Notes under the pieces: generated by a model
What the model was told of the DNA's origin: nothing
Database searches by the model: none
Seen by the model: only the letters and a program-made list of their open reading frames with translations
From: Nitrospirales bacterium
Lineage (GTDB): Bacteria > Nitrospirota > Nitrospiria > Nitrospirales > UBA8639
Assembly: GCA_029261255.1 (NCBI GenBank)
Contig: JAJDBQ010000144.1
Span: forward strand, 1-37,457
Length of the DNA stretch: 37,457 nucleotides
Direction of reading: 5' to 3'
Position numbers and translations under genes: made by a program
Part shown: one piece after another, positions 6,477 through 24,383 of the stretch
Layout: the number at the start of each line of letters is the position of its first letter
Numbering within the stretch: the first letter of the stretch is position 1

Positions 6477-6678
6477 AGGAGAGAAGGTCTTTCTTTCATG
6501 GAGTATTCATCATCTGATTTTACCTAAAGAAGATTGTTTACCTTATCAGATTATGTTGAGAGATGGCGATCGAAATCACGATGTGGAAATTTTGTGAAAG
6601 AGGGTAAGAGAAGTAATCACTGGCTGTTGGGGGTAACACATAGAGTGCGGTGCTTGTTGGAAAAGTTTATTTTACATG

Positions 6679-6966
6679 CTAACGAAGATCATTCAGTAAC
6701 CACCAAGGTCGTCGATTGTAGCCCTTGTCTAACATGCATTGTTCAATCTGTTGTTTGAGTGTTTCTTGGTCCACATAATCCTGTCCTTTATTTGTCTTTT
6801 GTACGTGGAGCGAACATTCCAGTTGTTTATTTGGCGAGACTTCATGCCCATCTGTTTTTACCCAGAGTGAACGAGTGCACCCGACCATTGATCACCCAAT
6901 CAAGATCAATAAAGACAGAAAACAGAAAGAGCGAGCCGTAACGTGGTCAGGATGAATGTGAGACAT
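6679..6966 (-). pseudogene. small lipoprotein gene broken by an in-frame TGA
   Basis: Reading from ATG at 6966, the frame encodes a charged start, a hydrophobic core (SFCFLSLLILIG), TGA at 6892-6894, then SMVGC and the mature sequence to 6679. If TGA were TGG (Trp), this would be a standard lipoprotein signal peptide ending in a lipobox-like MVGC. The C-terminal part (TLKQQIEQCMLDKGY) matches the QCM-x-KGY ending common in small envelope lipoproteins. An ATG right after the stop (6888) could still start a 69-residue protein without a signal. It is either a recent nonsense mutation or a sequencing error. The flanks 6477-6678 and 6967-7257 hold nothing else I can support. Confidence 0.5.
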
Positions 6967-16298: not shown

Positions 16299-16331
16299 AA
16301 AAAAAAGCCCATTCTTGTTCGAAGAATGGGC
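16299..16331 (-). terminator. intrinsic terminator of the riboswitch leader
   Basis: On the minus strand a perfect 10-base stem (AAGAATGGGC 16322-16331 and GCCCATTCTT 16307-16316 on the plus strand, loop of five bases) is followed by eight T (16299-16306). It lies about 20 bases after the aptamer and about 110 bases before the first start codon, the normal place for a riboswitch expression platform. Confidence 0.85.
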
Positions 16332-16351
16332 GCAACTGGACTCGTCGTTTC

Positions 16352-16445
16352 GATAGCCAGTGGTAGCCGGGCGAACCTGACATTGGAGAAAGGTCCCTTG
16401 GCTTTGCGTCCCATCCTTACGAATGGTTTGCCCTTTTCATATCAC
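16352..16445 (-). promoter_or_regulatory. GEMM-I cyclic-di-GMP-type riboswitch aptamer
   Basis: The minus strand contains GGGCAAACC, a hairpin CCATTC-GTAA-GGATGG closed by a GNRA tetraloop, then GGGACGCAAAGCC, a second irregular arm (GGGACC pairing with GGT..CCC) and GGCTACC. These are the conserved parts of the GEMM-I class. A short outer helix GATA/TATC closes it. The base before the GCAAACC core is G where c-di-GMP binders have G20, which argues for c-di-GMP rather than cGAMP. Aptamer bases AAGGATGGG (plus 16410-16418) can pair with the 5' side of the terminator's complement, which suggests a switch. The rest of the 16191-16655 gap (mostly 16446-16655) shows only spacer and likely promoters for both strands. 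Confidence 0.88.
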
Positions 16446-16655
16446 TGATAGTATCGGTGCAATCTCAAAAATGCTTGAGTGGAAGGCAAGGGATAGAATG
16501 TTTAATACCTTGTAAATACAGGAGAATTACAGTGAAAGGCGTACCTCAAATGAGAGTGGGTAAGAAAAAGTGGAATTCTCTGGGACTTTGACCTCAAGAA
16601 GTGAAAAAATCGAACCGAAAAAAACAAGAACACAACAAGAGGGACCTCATACACC

Positions 16656-18587
16656 ATGAATGTAGACATTCTTGCAGATCACGTCACCATGCCCCTTCAA
16701 GTGATGCTCGATGCCGCGCCGAGTGGCATGATGTTAGTTGATGAGGCCGGCTTGATTGTCATGGCCAATCAACTACTGGCTATACAATTTGGTTATGTGA
16801 ATACGGAGTTGCTCGGACAACCCGTGGAAGTGCTCATTCCCGAGCGTCTTCGAACGAATCATCCTGATTATTTCAAAAGATTTTTTGCTGCACCTGCATC
16901 TCGACCTATGGGCTCGGGACGGGACTTATATGGAAAGCGAAAAGATGGGACGGAATTTCTCGTAGAAATTGGGCTCAACCCCCTGACGCATGACGATGTT
17001 ACCTACGTATTGGCTTCTCTTGTCGATATCACTGAGCGGAAAAAACGTGAGGCCCAACATATTGCGACTCTTTCGCAACGCCTGTTACTGGCTACGCACT
17101 CGGCTCAGATCGGCATATGGGAGTGGGATGTGGTGCTGAATACATTAACGTGGGATGCGCAAACGTATGCACTCTATGGTTTACCGGCTGAATCTCAGCA
17201 TGAACCCTATTCGACTTGGGCGAATGCCCTGCATCCAGATGATCGACAACCCGTAGAAGAGGCACTTCAACTTGCCGTTAAAGGCAAGCAAGACTATGTT
17301 GCGAAATTTCGGGTGATATGGCCGGACCATTCCATTCATTGGGTACATGGGGCTGGTTCTGTCGAGTGGGATTCGACGGGTCTACCGCTTCGAATGGTTG
17401 GGGTGAATTGGGATATTACCAATGAAAAAACCAGTGAGAAGGCTCTCCGAGACTCAGAGAAGTTACAGATGGCCATAATGGATTCTCTGTCAGCTCATAT
17501 TTGTGTTGTGGATCACCTAGGACGAATCGTAGCCACCAATCAACAATGGAATCTATTCGGTAGGGAGAACGCTATTTTTGGCGACTCGGGTGGAATAGGG
17601 ACGAACTATCTCAATATTTGTGAGCGAGCCAGTAATGATGGAGTTGAGGAGGCTCAAGATGTTGCCAGTGGTTTATGGGGAATTATTGGCGGAGAGAAAG
17701 ATGAGTTTTCTCTCGAATACCCTTGTCATTCCCCAACAGAGAACCGTTGGTTTATTTGCCGAATGAATGTGCTCGTAGATTCAAGTCCTCGAAAGGTTGT
17801 TGTCGCACATGAAAATATCACGGCAATAAAAGCAGCTGAACACGTGTTGATTGAATACAATCAGGAGCTGGAGAAAAGCAATCAAGAGCTGGATGATTTT
17901 GCCTATATTGCGTCACATGACCTCAAAGAGCCGCTTCGGGGTATCTTTAATTATGCCACGATTTTGCTGGAAGATCATGGGCAAAACTTGAATGATGATG
18001 GTCGGGCTCGGTGTGAAACGCTGTGTCGATTATCACGGCGTATGGAAGAATTATTAGATGGGTTGTTGTATTACTCTCGGACCGGACGAACCGAGCTGGC
18101 GATAAAGATGACGGATCTCGATCAGGTACTCGGCACTGTCCTTGAAACAGTGGATATCAGTCTGAAAGAGTCTGGCGTCCTCTTGAATGTGCCGCAGATT
18201 TTTCCAGAAGTGCATTGCGATTCAGTCCGCGTGGGAGAAATCTTTCGAAACCTCATCACGAATGCCATGAAATATAATGATAAAGCCGAAAAGTGGATTG
18301 AAATCGGATTTTGCGATGGAACGAATACTTCGCCTAGCACCAAAGGACATCCCTCAGGAATTCCGGTCTTTTACGTGAAGGATAACGGGGTAGGCATCAG
18401 AGAAAAACATTTCCAGAGTATTTTTCGGATCTTTAAACGATTGCATGGGCGCGATAAATTTGGGGGCGGGACTGGCGCTGGATTAACCATTACGAAAAAA
18501 CTTGTTGAGCGTCATGGTGGGCGGCTCTGGATTGAATCGACGGTTGGAGAAGGCTCAACATTTTTCTTTACTTTGCAAAAGGGGTAG
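16656..18587 (+). CDS. soluble triple-PAS histidine kinase
   Basis: The 643-residue protein has no membrane segment. PAS1 spans ~15-128 and ends VDITERKK. PAS2 (~140-262) has the GIWEWD...HPDDR pattern of PAS_3. A third, more divergent PAS (~272-395) follows. A coiled linker leads to HisKA with His421 in ASHDLKEPLRG, then HATPase with NAMKYND, KDNGVGI and GTGAGLTI. PAS1 keeps His69, Arg75 and Arg89, spaced as the heme His, Arg206 and Arg220 of FixL, though this spacing also occurs in PAS domains not known to bind heme. It starts the first of two identical three-gene modules and probably phosphorylates the receiver five bases downstream. Confidence 0.92.
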   Translation: MNVDILADHVTMPLQVMLDAAPSGMMLVDEAGLIVMANQLLAIQFGYVNTELLGQPVEVLIPERLRTNHPDYFKRFFAAPASRPMGSGRDLYGKRKDGTEFLVEIGLNPLTHDDVTYVLASLVDITERKKREAQHIATLSQRLLLATHSAQIGIWEWDVVLNTLTWDAQTYALYGLPAESQHEPYSTWANALHPDDRQPVEEALQLAVKGKQDYVAKFRVIWPDHSIHWVHGAGSVEWDSTGLPLRMVGVNWDITNEKTSEKALRDSEKLQMAIMDSLSAHICVVDHLGRIVATNQQWNLFGRENAIFGDSGGIGTNYLNICERASNDGVEEAQDVASGLWGIIGGEKDEFSLEYPCHSPTENRWFICRMNVLVDSSPRKVVVAHENITAIKAAEHVLIEYNQELEKSNQELDDFAYIASHDLKEPLRGIFNYATILLEDHGQNLNDDGRARCETLCRLSRRMEELLDGLLYYSRTGRTELAIKMTDLDQVLGTVLETVDISLKESGVLLNVPQIFPEVHCDSVRVGEIFRNLITNAMKYNDKAEKWIEIGFCDGTNTSPSTKGHPSGIPVFYVKDNGVGIREKHFQSIFRIFKRLHGRDKFGGGTGAGLTITKKLVERHGGRLWIESTVGEGSTFFFTLQKG

Positions 18588-18592
18588 CAATC

Positions 18593-19051
18593 ATGGTGAC
18601 ACCGAATCAACCCATTCTACTGGTTGAAGATAGTCCTGAAGACTTTGAGATGACCGTGCGAAGTCTCAAAAAAGCGGGACTCAAAAACCCTATTCATCAT
18701 TGCTGCGATGGTGATGATGCGCTGGATTACTTGTATCGCCGTGGAGCCTATGTCGATGCGATGGATGCTCGGTTGCCAGGCATCATTTTGTTAGATCTCA
18801 ACATGCCAGGCACCGATGGTCGTGAAGTGCTCGATGAGGTGAAGAAGGATCCGAACTTGAATCAGATTCCCGTGATTGTGCTGACCACATCGGGAGACGA
18901 ACGCGATGTCCAAGAGAGTTATGGCATGGGAGCCAATAGTTTTATCCAAAAGCCTTTGGACTTTGACGGGTTCATGAAAGCCATGACACGGTTAAATGAG
19001 TACTGGTTTGAAGTGGTCATTCTTCCGAAGGCCGCCGAGGCCGTTGGATGA
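18593..19051 (+). CDS. Rcp1-like single-domain response regulator
   Basis: This receiver-only protein of 152 residues has Glu12-Asp13, phospho-acceptor Asp68 in IILLDLNMP, the switch Thr in VLTTSG and Lys in FIQKPLDF. The DGDDALDYLYRRG insertion and NEYWFEVV tail mark the Rcp1 group. AAAGGGG precedes ATG 18593 by about 9 bases. It begins five bases after the triple-PAS kinase stop and overlaps the next gene by four bases (ATGA), so translation is coupled across the module. It is the probable carrier of phosphate between the two kinases of the module. Confidence 0.93.
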   Translation: MVTPNQPILLVEDSPEDFEMTVRSLKKAGLKNPIHHCCDGDDALDYLYRRGAYVDAMDARLPGIILLDLNMPGTDGREVLDEVKKDPNLNQIPVIVLTTSGDERDVQESYGMGANSFIQKPLDFDGFMKAMTRLNEYWFEVVILPKAAEAVG

Positions 19052-20211
19052 TCACCGAAGTCTTCAAAATTTTAATTATTGATGATTGCGCGGAAGATCG
19101 AGAAATCTATATTCGGTATCTTGGCCAACAGTCCGAGAGAGAATTTGAAATTATCGAATCGGAATCTGGAGAGGAAGGGTTGTTGCTCTGTAAACAAGAG
19201 CAACCGGATTGTGCCATCATCGATTATCAAATTCCTGATTTGGATGGTTTGGAATTTATTCAAGCGTTAGCGAATGATGAAGAGCAGCGTTACATCCCTG
19301 TGTTGATGTTGACAGGGCAAGGGAATGAAGGCGTGGCGTCAGAAGCCTTGAAAGGTGGTGCCAGTGACTACCTGGTGAAAGGAAAATTGACGGCAGAAGG
19401 ATTATATCGAGCGGTGACACAGGCCATTGAAAAATCAAACTTATTACGAACAAATGACAAACAGCAGCGTGAAATCGAACGGTCGTATCGTGAGTTAGAG
19501 CAGTTTGCCCATACCGCTTCACATGATCTCCAAGCACCAATCCGACGCATCTCCAAGTTTTTAGAGCTTATTCAAATGGATCTTCAGGAGTCGCTTTCAG
19601 AGCGATCCAAAGATTATTTAGATCGAGCCTTAAAAGGCGCGGCCCACATGCGGCGATTGATTCAAGATCTCTTAGACTATTCACTTGTGGGTGGGGCGAA
19701 AAATAGCATGGAGTCCGTGTGCCTCGAACATGTGCTCAAAGAAGTCTTGAGCCAACTTGAAGTGATGGTCATGAGTACCAATGCGACCATCGAAGTCGAT
19801 ATGCTACCCAAAGTGTTGGGGAATCAAACATTCCTTCAACAACTGTTCCAAAACTTAATTGCAAATGCGATCAAATTTCGGGGTGAACAGGCGCCACTCA
19901 TCAACGTGTTTGCCAACCGGACGGGTTCGAAATGGACGGTGACGGTCAAAGATAATGGTATTGGCATTCCGAATGATGCCTTTGACAGTATTTTTGGGAT
20001 CTTTCAACGAGTTGATTGTGGCAGTCAGGTTGAAGGGACAGGGATCGGTTTGGCTCTATGCAAGAAAATCGTAGAATTACACGAAGGCCAAATCTGGGTT
20101 GAATCCACGGTGGATGAGGGGACGGCATTCCACTTTACGTTACCGTCCTGCCTTGGACAGGCTGACGCCAAAATGCTTGAAACGGTGGCTGCTGCTATTG
20201 AATCTTCGTAA
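19048..20211 (+). CDS. receiver-histidine kinase (REC-HK)
   Basis: The 387-residue soluble protein has a receiver (~5-125) with Asp12-Asp13, phospho-acceptor Asp59 in CAIIDYQIP and Lys in YLVKGKL. A short coil (KQQREIERSYRELEQ) leads to HisKA with His159 in ASHDLQAPIRR. The HATPase domain has NAIKFRG, KDNGIGI and GTGIGLALCKKIV. Its start overlaps the preceding receiver stop by four bases. It closes the first module. No DNA-binding or enzymatic output domain follows, so the target of its kinase half is unknown. Confidence 0.93.
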   Translation: MITEVFKILIIDDCAEDREIYIRYLGQQSEREFEIIESESGEEGLLLCKQEQPDCAIIDYQIPDLDGLEFIQALANDEEQRYIPVLMLTGQGNEGVASEALKGGASDYLVKGKLTAEGLYRAVTQAIEKSNLLRTNDKQQREIERSYRELEQFAHTASHDLQAPIRRISKFLELIQMDLQESLSERSKDYLDRALKGAAHMRRLIQDLLDYSLVGGAKNSMESVCLEHVLKEVLSQLEVMVMSTNATIEVDMLPKVLGNQTFLQQLFQNLIANAIKFRGEQAPLINVFANRTGSKWTVTVKDNGIGIPNDAFDSIFGIFQRVDCGSQVEGTGIGLALCKKIVELHEGQIWVESTVDEGTAFHFTLPSCLGQADAKMLETVAAAIESS

Positions 20212-20327
20212 TGATAGAACTCACTGCTTCTCTATTTCATCCTAAATCGACAGATGAAGTCATAGTCATGTCTGGCCTCAAAAGACAAAAACACAAAAAA
20301 GTACGATACATGCACAAATTTTTAATA

Positions 20328-20356
20328 TTGTACAAGAATAATTGAGAGGGTAGAAT
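20328..20356 (+). promoter_or_regulatory. possible sigma70-like promoter for the second module
   Basis: TTGTAC (20328-20333) and TAGAAT (20351-20356) are 17 bases apart. The -10 box matches five of six consensus bases; the -35 matches three. A transcript would have a leader of about 280 bases before 20644. The rest of the 20212-20643 gap shows no convincing gene or RNA. Confidence 0.3.
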
Positions 20357-20643
20357 ACATTCTGGTCTTTGGTATCCGCTTCTTATATGAAGCTTCTCTT
20401 CTTCCAATTCACTTCCTTTGTGCAATCGAGTGGTAACGAGCCATTTGATCCAAGATTCAGTTCGACACCGACCGATACAATCCAAGCTCATAAAACAGCA
20501 GATTCAGCAGTAGCAAGTATTCCGAATAACATCTGCGGCGTTCTCAGCTCCTATGTTGATTGCATGGTCTATAACACCATACTGGTCTTGGTCTTGCCGG
20601 TGAGATCGTCTTACACGAAGACTGCGACAGATTTTCCATTGAG

Positions 20644-22824
20644 ATGACTGGAAACAAACCAACAATGGCACGACTAGACCAGCAGGTAGACGATTTGACT
20701 CAGACACGAAAAAAAATGGAGTTAGCGGGCACGCTTCGCTGGTTCCATTGGTTGATTGTGCTCTCTTCTCTTCTGCTGACTTTTGGAGCCTGGTATTTTT
20801 CTAAGACGCAATTGGACGCAAAAATCGAAGTGCAATTTGAACGCGAAATGGACCAGGTGGTTGATCTTATCGTCGATCGGATGAAAAAGTATGAAGATGC
20901 CCTGTGGAGTGGAGTGGGCCTCATTCAAACCACAGGTGGTGATGCGAGCTTTCCAGAATGGGAGACCTTTGCGACAAGCCTTCGGATTGAAGAAAGATAT
21001 CCAGGGATCAACGGCATTGGAGTGATTCATAGAGTGATACCTGAACAACTGGATGCATATTTAGAGCGTCAACAAGCCATTCGCCCTGACTATGCGATAC
21101 ACCCTCCTCATCAGGAGACTGAATATTGGCCGATTACCTATGTCGTTCCCGTTGGCCCTAATGCCAAAGCCATTGGCTTAGACATGGCTCATGAAACTAA
21201 TCGCTTTACCGCTGGCAAAAAGGCACGGGATACGGGCCTCGCTCAAATCACCGGACCAATCACGCTGGTACAAGACGCAGCTAAGACTCCCGGGTTTTTG
21301 TTTTATGCTCCCTTTTATTTAGGAGGACGATACGAGTCGTTAGAAGTTCGACAAACCGAATTCGTTGGGATGGTCTATGCCCCATTTATCGTGAATAAAT
21401 TGATGGAAGGAGTCTTGGCCCAACACAATCGCCACATCGGCCTTCGTATGAGCGACCAGGGGGATGTTCTGTATGACGAGCATACACAAGCAAATCTTGA
21501 CTTCGATTCGCATCCCCTTTTTCAGAAAGAGGTAGTCATTCCGTTATATGGACGAGATTGGTTGTTTGATATTCGAAGTACTCAAGCTTTTCGTACTGCA
21601 ACGTTCAATAATCAACCAACGATCATTCTCTTCGGCGGCTTGATTATTGATGGCTTGCTTCTGGTCATGTTTATCCTTATGTCACGTGGCAGTCGGAAGG
21701 CCATCACGTATGCCAATGAAGCCAATCGCCAAATCGTACAAGGGAGCCAACGTTTGCAAGCGGTCATGGACACGGCGGTTGATGGGATTATCACCATTGA
21801 TGACAAAGGGACCATTCAAGACTGTAATCCGGCCGCCAGTAGAATCTTTGGATATTCGCCTGAAGAGATGGTGGGACAGAATGTGAAGATGTTGATGCCG
21901 TCCCCTTATCATGAGGAGCATGATGGGTATTTGAACCGCTATCAGGAGACCGGAGAACAGCACATCATTGGCAGTGGGGGGCGCGAGTTGATTGGTAAAC
22001 GCAAAGATGGGACGACGTTTCCCATGGATCTGTCGGTGGGGGAAATGTTGCTGGAAGACCAGACCCTCTTCAGTGGATTAGTGCGCGATATCACGGAGCG
22101 AAAGGAAGCTGAAGAAGCACTGAAGGCGACCAATGAAGAACTCGAGCGCTTTGCCTATATTGCTTCTCATGATCTTAAAGCTCCCTTGCGTGTGATTGAT
22201 AACGCCTCTAAGTGGCTGGAGGAAGATTTAGCCGAACATCTGACTCACGACAATCGAGAAAATATGGATTTGATGCGAGGCCGGGTGAAGCGAATGAATA
22301 AGCTCTTAGACGATCTCTTGGAATATTCACGGGTGGGACGGGCCACAGATGATCGGTATCAGGAACAAGTGAATGGGATCATCCTTGTCGAGGAGATTGT
22401 GGAGTTGTTGGCTCCTCCAGAGGGTTTTACGATCGACGTGAGTCCAGCCTTCGCCTCGATTCAGTTTTTGAGGATGCCTCTTCAACAAATTCTCCTGAAT
22501 CTAATTAACAACGCTCTTAAGCATCATGATAAAGCGCACGGGTTGATTACGATCGGCGTTGAGGAACACATCGGGCATTATCGTTTGACTGTGACCGATG
22601 ACGGACCGGGCATCCCGCAGACCTTTCATGAGCAAGTTTTTGACATGTTCAAAACGCTTAAACCTCGAGACCAAGTAGAAGGCAGTGGCATGGGCTTGGC
22701 CATGGTCAAAAAGCATATCGATCTCGCGGGAGGAACCGTTCATCTCGAATCTACCGAAGGTCAGGGCAGTACCTTCATTATTCTCTGGCCTAAGCAGCAC
22801 ACCATGGAAGGAGTGCCAGCATGA
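20644..22824 (+). CDS. CHASE-PAS membrane histidine kinase with FixL-like PAS
   Basis: The 726-residue protein has a membrane segment (~34-52), an extracytoplasmic CHASE domain (~80-290; YPGINGIGVIHRV, FLFYAPFY), a second membrane segment (~322-342), a PAS domain (~365-485), HisKA with His509 in ASHDLKAPLRV and HATPase (NALKHHD, DDGPGIP, GSGMGLAMVKKHI). The PAS closely resembles FixL: DGIITIDDKGTIQDCNP, VKMLMPSPY and HDGYLNRY with His426 where FixL binds heme. Arg432 is conserved. The next Arg (447) is displaced by one inserted residue (HIIGSGGREL). CHASE domains sense small outside ligands; the PAS may add oxygen sensing. The exact start is uncertain (20644, or 20665). It opens the second module. 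Confidence 0.92.
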   Translation: MTGNKPTMARLDQQVDDLTQTRKKMELAGTLRWFHWLIVLSSLLLTFGAWYFSKTQLDAKIEVQFEREMDQVVDLIVDRMKKYEDALWSGVGLIQTTGGDASFPEWETFATSLRIEERYPGINGIGVIHRVIPEQLDAYLERQQAIRPDYAIHPPHQETEYWPITYVVPVGPNAKAIGLDMAHETNRFTAGKKARDTGLAQITGPITLVQDAAKTPGFLFYAPFYLGGRYESLEVRQTEFVGMVYAPFIVNKLMEGVLAQHNRHIGLRMSDQGDVLYDEHTQANLDFDSHPLFQKEVVIPLYGRDWLFDIRSTQAFRTATFNNQPTIILFGGLIIDGLLLVMFILMSRGSRKAITYANEANRQIVQGSQRLQAVMDTAVDGIITIDDKGTIQDCNPAASRIFGYSPEEMVGQNVKMLMPSPYHEEHDGYLNRYQETGEQHIIGSGGRELIGKRKDGTTFPMDLSVGEMLLEDQTLFSGLVRDITERKEAEEALKATNEELERFAYIASHDLKAPLRVIDNASKWLEEDLAEHLTHDNRENMDLMRGRVKRMNKLLDDLLEYSRVGRATDDRYQEQVNGIILVEEIVELLAPPEGFTIDVSPAFASIQFLRMPLQQILLNLINNALKHHDKAHGLITIGVEEHIGHYRLTVTDDGPGIPQTFHEQVFDMFKTLKPRDQVEGSGMGLAMVKKHIDLAGGTVHLESTEGQGSTFIILWPKQHTMEGVPA

Positions 22825-23270
22825 TGACGACGATGATGACTCAAGATACGAAACCCGTCACGATGGTTTTGGTTGAAGACGATGATGGAGATGCGAAAGC
22901 GTTCCAACGGGCCTTCAATAAAGCGAAAATTGCAAACCCGATACACCGCGCCGTTGACGGGCTGGATGCGTTGAAACTTTTACGGGGAGGGGACGGACAA
23001 CCCGGACTCTCTCGCCCATACATCCTCTTAGTCGATATCAATATGCCACGGATGAATGGTATCGATTTTGTCAAAGCCCTTCGTGACGATCCGGCATTGA
23101 AGTCAAGTATTGTGTTTGTTCTAACCACCTCCAAGAGGGATGAGGATAAGATCGCGGCCTATAATCTCAACGTCGCAGGATATATTGTTAAAGAAACAGC
23201 TGGCAGCGATTTTTTACAGTTGCTTGAACTGATGGATTGTTATTGGCGAATTGTTGAACTGCCAGATTGA
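22821..23270 (+). CDS. Rcp1-like single-domain response regulator
   Basis: This receiver-only protein of 149 residues has Asp20-Asp21-Asp22, phospho-acceptor Asp72 in YILLVDINMP, switch Thr in VLTTSK and Lys in YIVKETAG. The usual Lys-Pro is Lys-Glu here. Its start overlaps the kinase stop by four bases (ATGA), coupling translation. The first residues (MMTTMMTQD) offer three possible starts. Its place in the module is the same as that of the receiver at 18593, between a sensor kinase and a receiver-kinase. Confidence 0.92.
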   Translation: MMTTMMTQDTKPVTMVLVEDDDGDAKAFQRAFNKAKIANPIHRAVDGLDALKLLRGGDGQPGLSRPYILLVDINMPRMNGIDFVKALRDDPALKSSIVFVLTTSKRDEDKIAAYNLNVAGYIVKETAGSDFLQLLELMDCYWRIVELPD

Positions 23271-23285
23271 GAGAATCAGTTGAGC

Positions 23286-24383
23286 ATGAGAGGTGAAATC
23301 TTGAGGATTCTACTTGTGGATGATGATGAGGGGGATCGCAAACAGGTGTTGCGGGCTTTAAAGCAAACAGGGTTATCGGTGGAGGTCGTTGAAGTGTCTG
23401 GCATGGATCAAGCTATGGATGCCTGTCAGATTAAGAGTTTCGATTGTGCGATTGTGGATTATCATATGCCTGGCCAGGATGGACTTGCCGGGATCTCCGC
23501 TTTTCAAAGGCAGTTTCCCTACATGGCTACTGTAATGGTCACGGGGCAAGGTGATGAACTTGTCGCGGCGGAAGTTATCAAGCGTGGTGCCGGCGATTAT
23601 ATTCCGAAGGAACAGGTTAATGTCTCATCTCTCAAGCGGATTATTGAATATGTGCTTGAAAAAGCTGCGTTCCAAGAGAAACTTGATCAACAACGCAACG
23701 AACTTCAGAATTTCTCACGTGTGCTCGCACATGATTTGAAGTCTCCGACTCGGCATATCCGAGATATGATTGGGTTGATCCAAGAGAAAATGGCGGGGCA
23801 ACATCTGGATGAAGAAATCGTCCAATACATGGGGTATGTCTGTACGGCAGCCAATACGATGGACGCGTTGGTGGATGCGTTAACCGCGTACACCAAGTTT
23901 GACGCAGAAGTGGAGTTCCATGAGGTCTCGCTCGCGGAGTGTTTGACGAGCACGACAGCTTTGTTAGAAGGGGACATTCATCGGACGAATGCAAAGATCA
24001 TTGTTCAGGATTTACCAGCAATCTATGGGCATGAACCGCAACTCATTCAGCTGTTCCAGAATCTCATTGCCAATGCCCTCAAATATAATGAGGCCGACAC
24101 GCCGACGATTACCATTTTTGCTGAAGAAGAGGATGGTGGGTCTCGGATTGTTCTGCACGATAATGGCATTGGGATTCCAGAGAAGCACCAGAAGAAAATC
24201 TTTGAACCCTTTAAGAGGTTGCACGGCAAGGATAGTCAGTATGCGGGTTCTGGGTTAGGCCTGGCCACTTGCAAGAAGATCATTGAACGACATGGCGGCT
24301 CTATTTTCTGCCAATCAACTGGGCAAGGATCGACTTTTATATTGACGTTCCCCAGTTGTCTCGCTTCACCTGTTGCGACGTAA
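23286..24383 (+). CDS. receiver-histidine kinase (REC-HK)
   Basis: The 365-residue soluble protein has a receiver (~5-122) with Asp12-Asp13-Asp14, phospho-acceptor Asp58 in CAIVDYHMP and Lys in YIPKEQ. A coiled linker (EKLDQQRNELQNFSRVL) leads to HisKA with His149 in LAHDLKSPTRH. The HATPase domain has NALKYNE, HDNGIGIP and GSGLGLATCKKII. I prefer ATG 23286 to the TTG at 23280. It starts 15 bases after the receiver stop and ends the second module. The kinase domain is like that of the protein at 19048, which fits duplication of the module. Confidence 0.92.
   Translation: MRGEILRILLVDDDEGDRKQVLRALKQTGLSVEVVEVSGMDQAMDACQIKSFDCAIVDYHMPGQDGLAGISAFQRQFPYMATVMVTGQGDELVAAEVIKRGAGDYIPKEQVNVSSLKRIIEYVLEKAAFQEKLDQQRNELQNFSRVLAHDLKSPTRHIRDMIGLIQEKMAGQHLDEEIVQYMGYVCTAANTMDALVDALTAYTKFDAEVEFHEVSLAECLTSTTALLEGDIHRTNAKIIVQDLPAIYGHEPQLIQLFQNLIANALKYNEADTPTITIFAEEEDGGSRIVLHDNGIGIPEKHQKKIFEPFKRLHGKDSQYAGSGLGLATCKKIIERHGGSIFCQSTGQGSTFILTFPSCLASPVAT

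Follow-up and report, generated by a model that had tools for sequence, protein, structure and literature searches.

The closest described counterpart of the leader considered here is the Cd1 riboswitch that stands before flagellar genes in C. difficile. As set out in PMC9262584, Cd1 is a GEMM-I aptamer followed by a separate terminator that is stabilised by ligand, the antiterminator takes up an aptamer strand, and the outcome for the motility genes is OFF; the antiterminator pairs G86 and C87, the latter being the ligand-pairing base. The pilM cGAMP riboswitch of Geobacter, treated in the same account, has a homologous GEMM-I aptamer but is an ON switch, with an aptamer strand inside the terminator fold. 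Bc1 of Bacillus thuringiensis, before mcpE, is a c-di-GMP-I riboswitch that also works through terminators, with a long platform and two of them (PMC11218506). For Bdellovibrio the mapped FliA consensus is TTAAG-N16-CCGATA, and the attack-phase programme includes a massively expressed c-di-GMP riboswitch RNA (PMC3627812). In that paper the Bdellovibrio merRNA has, unlike the leader described below, no conserved downstream ORF, no FliA promoter is marked for it in the table, and it is proposed to be a c-di-GMP store rather than an OFF switch.

The window (the whole stretch of 37,457 nucleotides analysed, from a Nitrospirales bacterium) carries, between 16478 and 16299 and read along the minus strand, a promoter-like motif, a GEMM-I aptamer, a short hairpin region and an intrinsic terminator, with three genes following from 16190 (Table 1). 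The leader is probably (about 0.72) a c-di-GMP-I riboswitch that serves as a transcriptional OFF switch and is transcribed from a FliA/sigma28-type promoter. By sequence and fold alone the Cd1-type OFF design is present, that is, a separate terminator and an antiterminator that takes an aptamer strand; c-di-GMP as ligand and the OFF direction are predictions for this leader. Rfam and Pfam bear out the original prediction that a GEMM-I aptamer precedes a receiver / receiver-kinase operon. They also agree with it that the phosphorelay has no GGDEF or EAL part, as none of the three operon proteins has a match to either in Pfam at E 0.001. That prediction had the aptamer, the terminator and the existence of their pairing right; it missed the extension of this pairing into the ligand pocket, the sigma28-type promoter and a sister switch elsewhere in the genome. 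The gene types of the riboswitch operon recur in a divergent array at 16656-24383, made up of histidine kinases with PAS and CHASE domains, receiver-kinases and stand-alone receivers.

Table 1. Features of the leader and of the operon behind it, in window coordinates
Feature	Position	Strand	Basis
FliA/sigma28-type promoter (predicted), TCAAG-N16-CCGATA	16452..16478; -35 16478-16474, -10 16457-16452	minus	motif search and FliA consensus
c-di-GMP-I (GEMM-I) aptamer	16358..16441	minus	RF01051 62.3 bits, gathering 35; RF03167 62.0 bits, gathering 59
P2 hairpin, CCATTC-GTAA-GGATGG	16411..16426	minus	fold; -7.6 kcal/mol when the hairpin is folded by itself
Aptamer switching strand: P2 3′ strand AAGGATGGG and pocket junction (A)CGCAA	16404..16418	minus	pairs with 16322-16335, 14/14
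Hairpin ACTGG...CCAGT, absorbing the P1 3′ strand in ligand-free folds	16335..16361	minus	folds
Terminator 5′ arm with 5′ extension TTGCG (antiterminator strand)	16322..16335	minus	folds; leader comparison
Intrinsic terminator: GCCCATTCTT/AAGAATGGGC stem of 10 bp, then eight T	16299..16331	minus	fold, hairpin -15.3 kcal/mol
Stand-alone receiver, 147 aa	15747..16190	minus	PF00072, 3.3e-13
Receiver-HisKA-HATPase protein, 386 aa	14582..15742	minus	PF00072, PF00512, PF02518
Receiver-HATPase protein, 436 aa	13138..14448	minus	PF00072, PF02518

The GEMM-I assignment, for which the Rfam model had been suggested as a check, holds on the minus strand with a score well above the RF01051 gathering cut-off. 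In Rfam it is c-di-GMP-I-GGC (RF03167) that stands at the top of the clan (E 1.9e-12). That label was set aside: in the alignment the consensus of the model has G (ACGCGAAG) where the window has A (ACGCAAAG), and for this reason the aptamer is filed as an ordinary c-di-GMP-I. The name GGC is taken here to mean a G in place of the A47 of ordinary aptamers. By Vc2 numbering, positions 20 and 47 are represented by 16432 and 16405, and the pocket bases there are G and A. A47 stacks between the two guanines of the ligand. With G at position 20, c-di-GMP is the predicted ligand, A at this position being the mark of cGAMP-type (GEMM-Ib) aptamers. The P1 helix has few pairs and has lost its pocket-adjacent pair relative to the sister locus G039 (GTG there, ATG in the window); a CAGTG/CACTG pairing, partly 5′ of the expected transcription start, could close it. 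The window's genome has five GEMM-I matches and, as read from seven matches of which two lie within one open frame, six GGDEF genes. Another of its GEMM-I aptamers (C26:4715-4792) has A at position 20 (TA-GCAAACT), and by these bases the genome may possess both c-di-GMP-type and cGAMP-type aptamers.

The pairing on which switching would depend had been located correctly on the minus strand, with AAGGATGGG at 16418-16410, CCCATTCTT at 16330-16322, AAGAATGGG at 16316-16308 and the eight T at 16306-16299, and folding returns the terminator that had been described. The nine pairs proposed between AAGGATGGG and CCCATTCTT also form. Their number was too low, however, as beyond them TTGCG (16335-16331) is complementary to CGCAA (16408-16404) and the helix runs for 14/14 pairs into the ligand-pocket junction. 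The antiterminator is then 14 bp with A16409 bulged, nine of the pairs being in P2 and five in the junction; in the window the UUGC of TTGCG falls outside the terminator stem. When the antiterminator fold is enforced, the terminator 3′ arm pairs with the P2 5′ strand and the two hairpins swap strands, which accounts for the earlier remark that this arm is a near copy of the aptamer strand. The choice of strand differs from that of Cd1: in the folds the window antiterminator pairs with the 3′ strand of P2 and with the P2-P3 junction, not with the ligand-pairing 3′ strand as in the Cd1 type. Another difference from Cd1 is that in the five nearest loci (G000, the window's own, and G039, G040, G033 and G042) the P1 3′ strand can enter a separate hairpin just 5′ of the terminator. 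This hairpin is ACTGG/CCAGT in three of the five and CCAC/GTGG in the other two; elsewhere the hairpins are different or weaker.

Ligand-free folds of the growing RNA, in which polymerase-covered RNA is treated as free, have the antiterminator as the minimum-energy structure at nine of ten sampled lengths between 121 and 148 nt, with 10-13 of its 14 pairs held. It is preferred at 121-136 nt and again at 142, 145 and 148 nt, the T-run ending at nt 147; the terminator is preferred at 139 nt, where its 3′ arm is just complete, and at 151 and 154 nt. At full length (155 nt) the calculated energies are -52.2 kcal/mol for the antiterminator and -54.1 for the terminator, which is ahead by 1.9 kcal/mol without ligand. 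By these modelled energies the switch is poised, and since the terminator is favoured at full length even when ligand-free, switching would need kinetics. Without ligand, the emerging TTGCG would first pair with the open pocket junction CGCAA, after which CCCATTCTT would displace the P2 5′ strand from AAGGATGGG. The 14-bp antiterminator would then block the terminator while polymerase crosses the T-run, and the receiver / kinase operon would be made. With c-di-GMP bound, the junction, A47 equivalent included, would be occupied, the antiterminator would be unable to nucleate and the 10-bp terminator would form. We infer this order of strand exchange, with nucleation at the junction; TTGCG emerges first, so that the order of synthesis fits it. 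The switch offers a clean test case for antiterminator nucleation at a ligand-pocket junction.

GEMM-I aptamers were found in 32 of 48 genomes of the family; the other 16 gave no match, and they include all 14 genomes of genus g2. Of the 138 matches, G026:C129 (partial, below cut-off and without a locus), G033:C36 (unparsed) and G031:C364 (without downstream sequence) were left out of the counts. The fold and score counts cover 135 leaders (14 + 5 + 29 + 87) and the promoter count 137 (14 + 5 + 29 + 89). The 14 are aptamers upstream of relatives of the window's receiver gene. The 29 are defined by a tblastn match to a sigma gene of the window's genome, described below, so that for them a following sigma gene is true by definition. 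The five are further loci chosen after their leaders had been viewed. In one of these, G021 (L127), NCBIfam identifies the first gene downstream as a receiver-kinase; in three (G025, G023, G024) it is judged to be one from size and N-terminus alone.

For chance pairing, the aptamer strand was scored on a fixed scale against the 75 nt that follow each of 87 other GEMM-I aptamers in family genomes. Against its own downstream the window strand reaches 33.5, and against the 87 controls it has a median of 14 and a maximum of 23. When the window was cut into 998 tiles covering both strands, only two attained 33.5. Position and score identify one as the complement of the aptamer itself and the other as the real terminator arm; the next-best tile has 31.0. 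All 87 controls are outscored by 11 of the 14 receiver-gene leaders, two of the five further loci and 12 of the 29 sigma-gene leaders. Minimum-energy folds with at least eight aptamer-platform pairs occur in 9/14, 5/5 and 17/29 of these classes respectively, against 6/87 of the other GEMM-I leaders. With dinucleotide-shuffled downstreams the corresponding counts are 51/280, 22/100, 65/580 and 220/1,740. For the window locus alone the fold has 14 pairs, where the best of 20 shuffles has 12. Since as many as 51 of 280 shuffles have at least eight pairs, significance for single leaders from folds was given up in favour of the fixed-score comparison and conservation. By fold count the class as a whole stands out clearly, and the effect at a single locus is moderate.

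Within the receiver-gene class TTGCG is kept in 12 of 14 leaders and TGCG in 13. The sister loci G039 and G040 have switching elements nearly identical to those of the window. In G023:C5 two antiterminator pairs are altered on both strands, from G-C to A-T; the terminator arm (T5) is nearly invariant, and the covariation therefore rests on few, related events. The three competing helices have strands in common. A T-run, taken as five or more T in the first 75 nt downstream, is present at eight of the 14 loci and missing at six, five of them of genus g9 (G021-G025) and the sixth G020, which has four T. One internal pair is broken in G022, G024 and G025 of g9, with A opposite C, and in G021 the leader comparison detected no platform. 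At the position-20 equivalent, leaders with a promoter of this kind have A in G033:C370, G042:C68, G024:C10 and G022:C152, and C in G029:C1:2463565 and G023:C25. The related leaders form a natural series in which the specificity base varies with receiver gene and promoter constant. One aptamer of the sigma-gene class, G025:C61, has C at the specificity position and is without a FliA-type motif.

Judged by a conserved motif at a near-fixed distance, the leader promoter is of the FliA/sigma28 type. TNAAG-N15-17-CCGATN stands 9-12 nt 5′ of the aptamer at 14/14 receiver-gene loci, in whose leaders the motif was first spotted, and at 5/5 further loci, a count less independent than the 14/14 given how those loci were chosen. 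In the window it lies 9 nt upstream of the aptamer, and the spacing would put the transcription start near 16445. Shuffled upstream sequences match the motif in 12 of 27,400 cases (0.04%), and it is in none of the sigma-gene leaders (0/29, one of which has just 3 nt of upstream sequence). Among the other GEMM-I loci 13 of 89 have a FliA-type motif, at 26-32 nt upstream. Five of these distant motifs read TCAAGTTTT...CCGATA and eight T(C/T/A)AAGGATC...CCGATG. The window promoter is one base different from the Bdellovibrio FliA consensus. A search of the window's genome gives 42 occurrences of the pattern and 18 of the reversed control. One occurrence (C244:42781) is just 5′ of a gene with weak likeness to FlgM (24 bits, where the cut-off is 40.75). 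A one-mismatch motif is found about 120 nt before a flagellin gene, a weak case as that 4.5-kb locus has four such matches in all.

A sister GEMM-I aptamer in the window's genome (C54:9823-9913; L086/L250, 9823-10877) lies upstream of a FliA/WhiG-family sigma gene. The encoded protein scores 204.9 bits on TIGR02479, above the FliA/WhiG cut-off of 189.6, and 196.9 on the narrower FliA model PRK06986, just under its cut-off of 201. In the sister platform, which is similar, the helix again crosses the junction, with 13 of 15 positions paired, and a T-run follows; in ligand-free folds the antiterminator is preferred at 135-143 nt and the terminator from 147 nt. An aptamer precedes a relative of this sigma gene in 29 of the 48 family genomes, the window's included, with a T-run in 28 of the 29. 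High c-di-GMP would terminate the sigma gene and lower that sigma, and would terminate the sigma28-type window operon again in its own leader, which would make a coherent feed-forward loop. This supposes that the window promoter is read by the C54 sigma, either instead of flagellar FliA or alongside it, a link that family and motif suggest. A tentative extension, with odds well against it as a whole, is a motility-type circuit gated at two levels. A riboswitch would act on the FliA-type sigma and the same pocket-toehold platform on the target operon, and the target aptamer would have drifted (G, A or C), tying the operon to different messengers in relatives. If the feed-forward loop is real, a Nitrospirota lineage uses c-di-GMP to gate both a motility-type sigma and its target operon by RNA, with no protein receptor at either step.

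The leader could instead be an OFF switch without a feed-forward loop, flagellar FliA alone reading the promoter and the C54 sigma serving other genes, so that the genome would have two independent c-di-GMP switches. This has a substantial chance, somewhat short of even. A second FliA match in the genome, on C151, outscores the C54 protein (265.5 against 204.9 bits on TIGR02479, and 249.5 against 196.9 on PRK06986) and adjoins genes recognised from sequence, which we take to be flhB, flhA, flhF and flhG. Against an exclusive role for it, the segment MLDEIRAMDWVPRS is identical in the two sigmas, and 12 of the 14 genomes with a window-type locus also have the sigma-gene switch, the two exceptions being 83% and 64% complete. 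Decay is a different matter: the terminator may act as a constitutive attenuator behind an aptamer that no longer switches, as the weakened P1 of the window and the decayed platform of genus g9 might suggest. This is unlikely for the window itself, with its 14/14 pairs kept, 62 bits to Rfam and nearly the same switching elements in G039 and G040.

The remaining alternatives concern ligand and direction. That the aptamer mainly answers another cyclic dinucleotide, such as cGAMP, is quite unlikely; at the position-20 equivalent the same class does include leaders with A, in G033 and G042, and one with C, in G029, but the G of the window lacks the GEMM-Ib mark. PMC9481103 describes such a change in the pocket, and PMC9262584 reports that a change of the Cd1 equivalent, G11, had no large effect, so the position-20 base alone proves neither ligand. 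Least probable is an ON switch in which ligand binding prevents the terminator, the logic described for pilM, where the aptamer-stabilising strand is within the terminator fold (PMC9262584). It was rejected because aptamer (ending at 16358) and terminator (starting at 16331) have no bases in common; in the folds the terminator arm finds its strongest alternative pairing with the P2/pocket strand of the aptamer.

The c-di-GMP-I class and OFF logic before motility genes are already known from Cd1; the choice of strand and the two-level wiring look new. Literature searches combined riboswitch with FliA, GEMM with sigma28 or flagellar, antiterminator with c-di-GMP riboswitch, and Nitrospira with riboswitch and c-di-GMP. 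Among the matches listed, no such leader had a FliA-type promoter or an antiterminator that uses the pocket junction with the 3′ strand of P2, and none had a FliA-type sigma gene under a paired switch, which is no proof of novelty as subscription papers were mostly outside their scope. For a c-di-GMP riboswitch of Nitrospirota these searches gave no match.

Beyond this family the platform probably occurs as well, to judge from a strict pattern (aptamer core and TGCGYYYAT arm) searched in GTDB contigs. The pattern returned 43 stretches, by title 24 Nitrospir-, three Nitrospinota and 16 others, of which 19 were inspected by eye. A similar aptamer and terminator arm are seen outside Nitrospirota in L185 and L204 (Omnitrophota), L205 (a deltaproteobacterium) and L187 (Desulfuromusa), and L180 and L207 are possible cases. 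In L182, L196 and L209, among others, the last element of the pattern seems to match by chance. The deltaproteobacterial GEMM-I of L205, near 6646-6743, has a FliA-type motif upstream as well as the similar terminator arm.

At the other end of the window, 23-2356 holds a 777-aa BrxC/BrxD-like ORF that begins at the contig end (its Pfam match is above cut-off; NCBIfam BrxD, at 94 bits, is below). In G027 (L162) a GEMM-I aptamer is followed by a protein that is equal in length to this ORF and shares its best match, and in G020 (L157) an N-terminus resembling it, by eye, is downstream of an aptamer.
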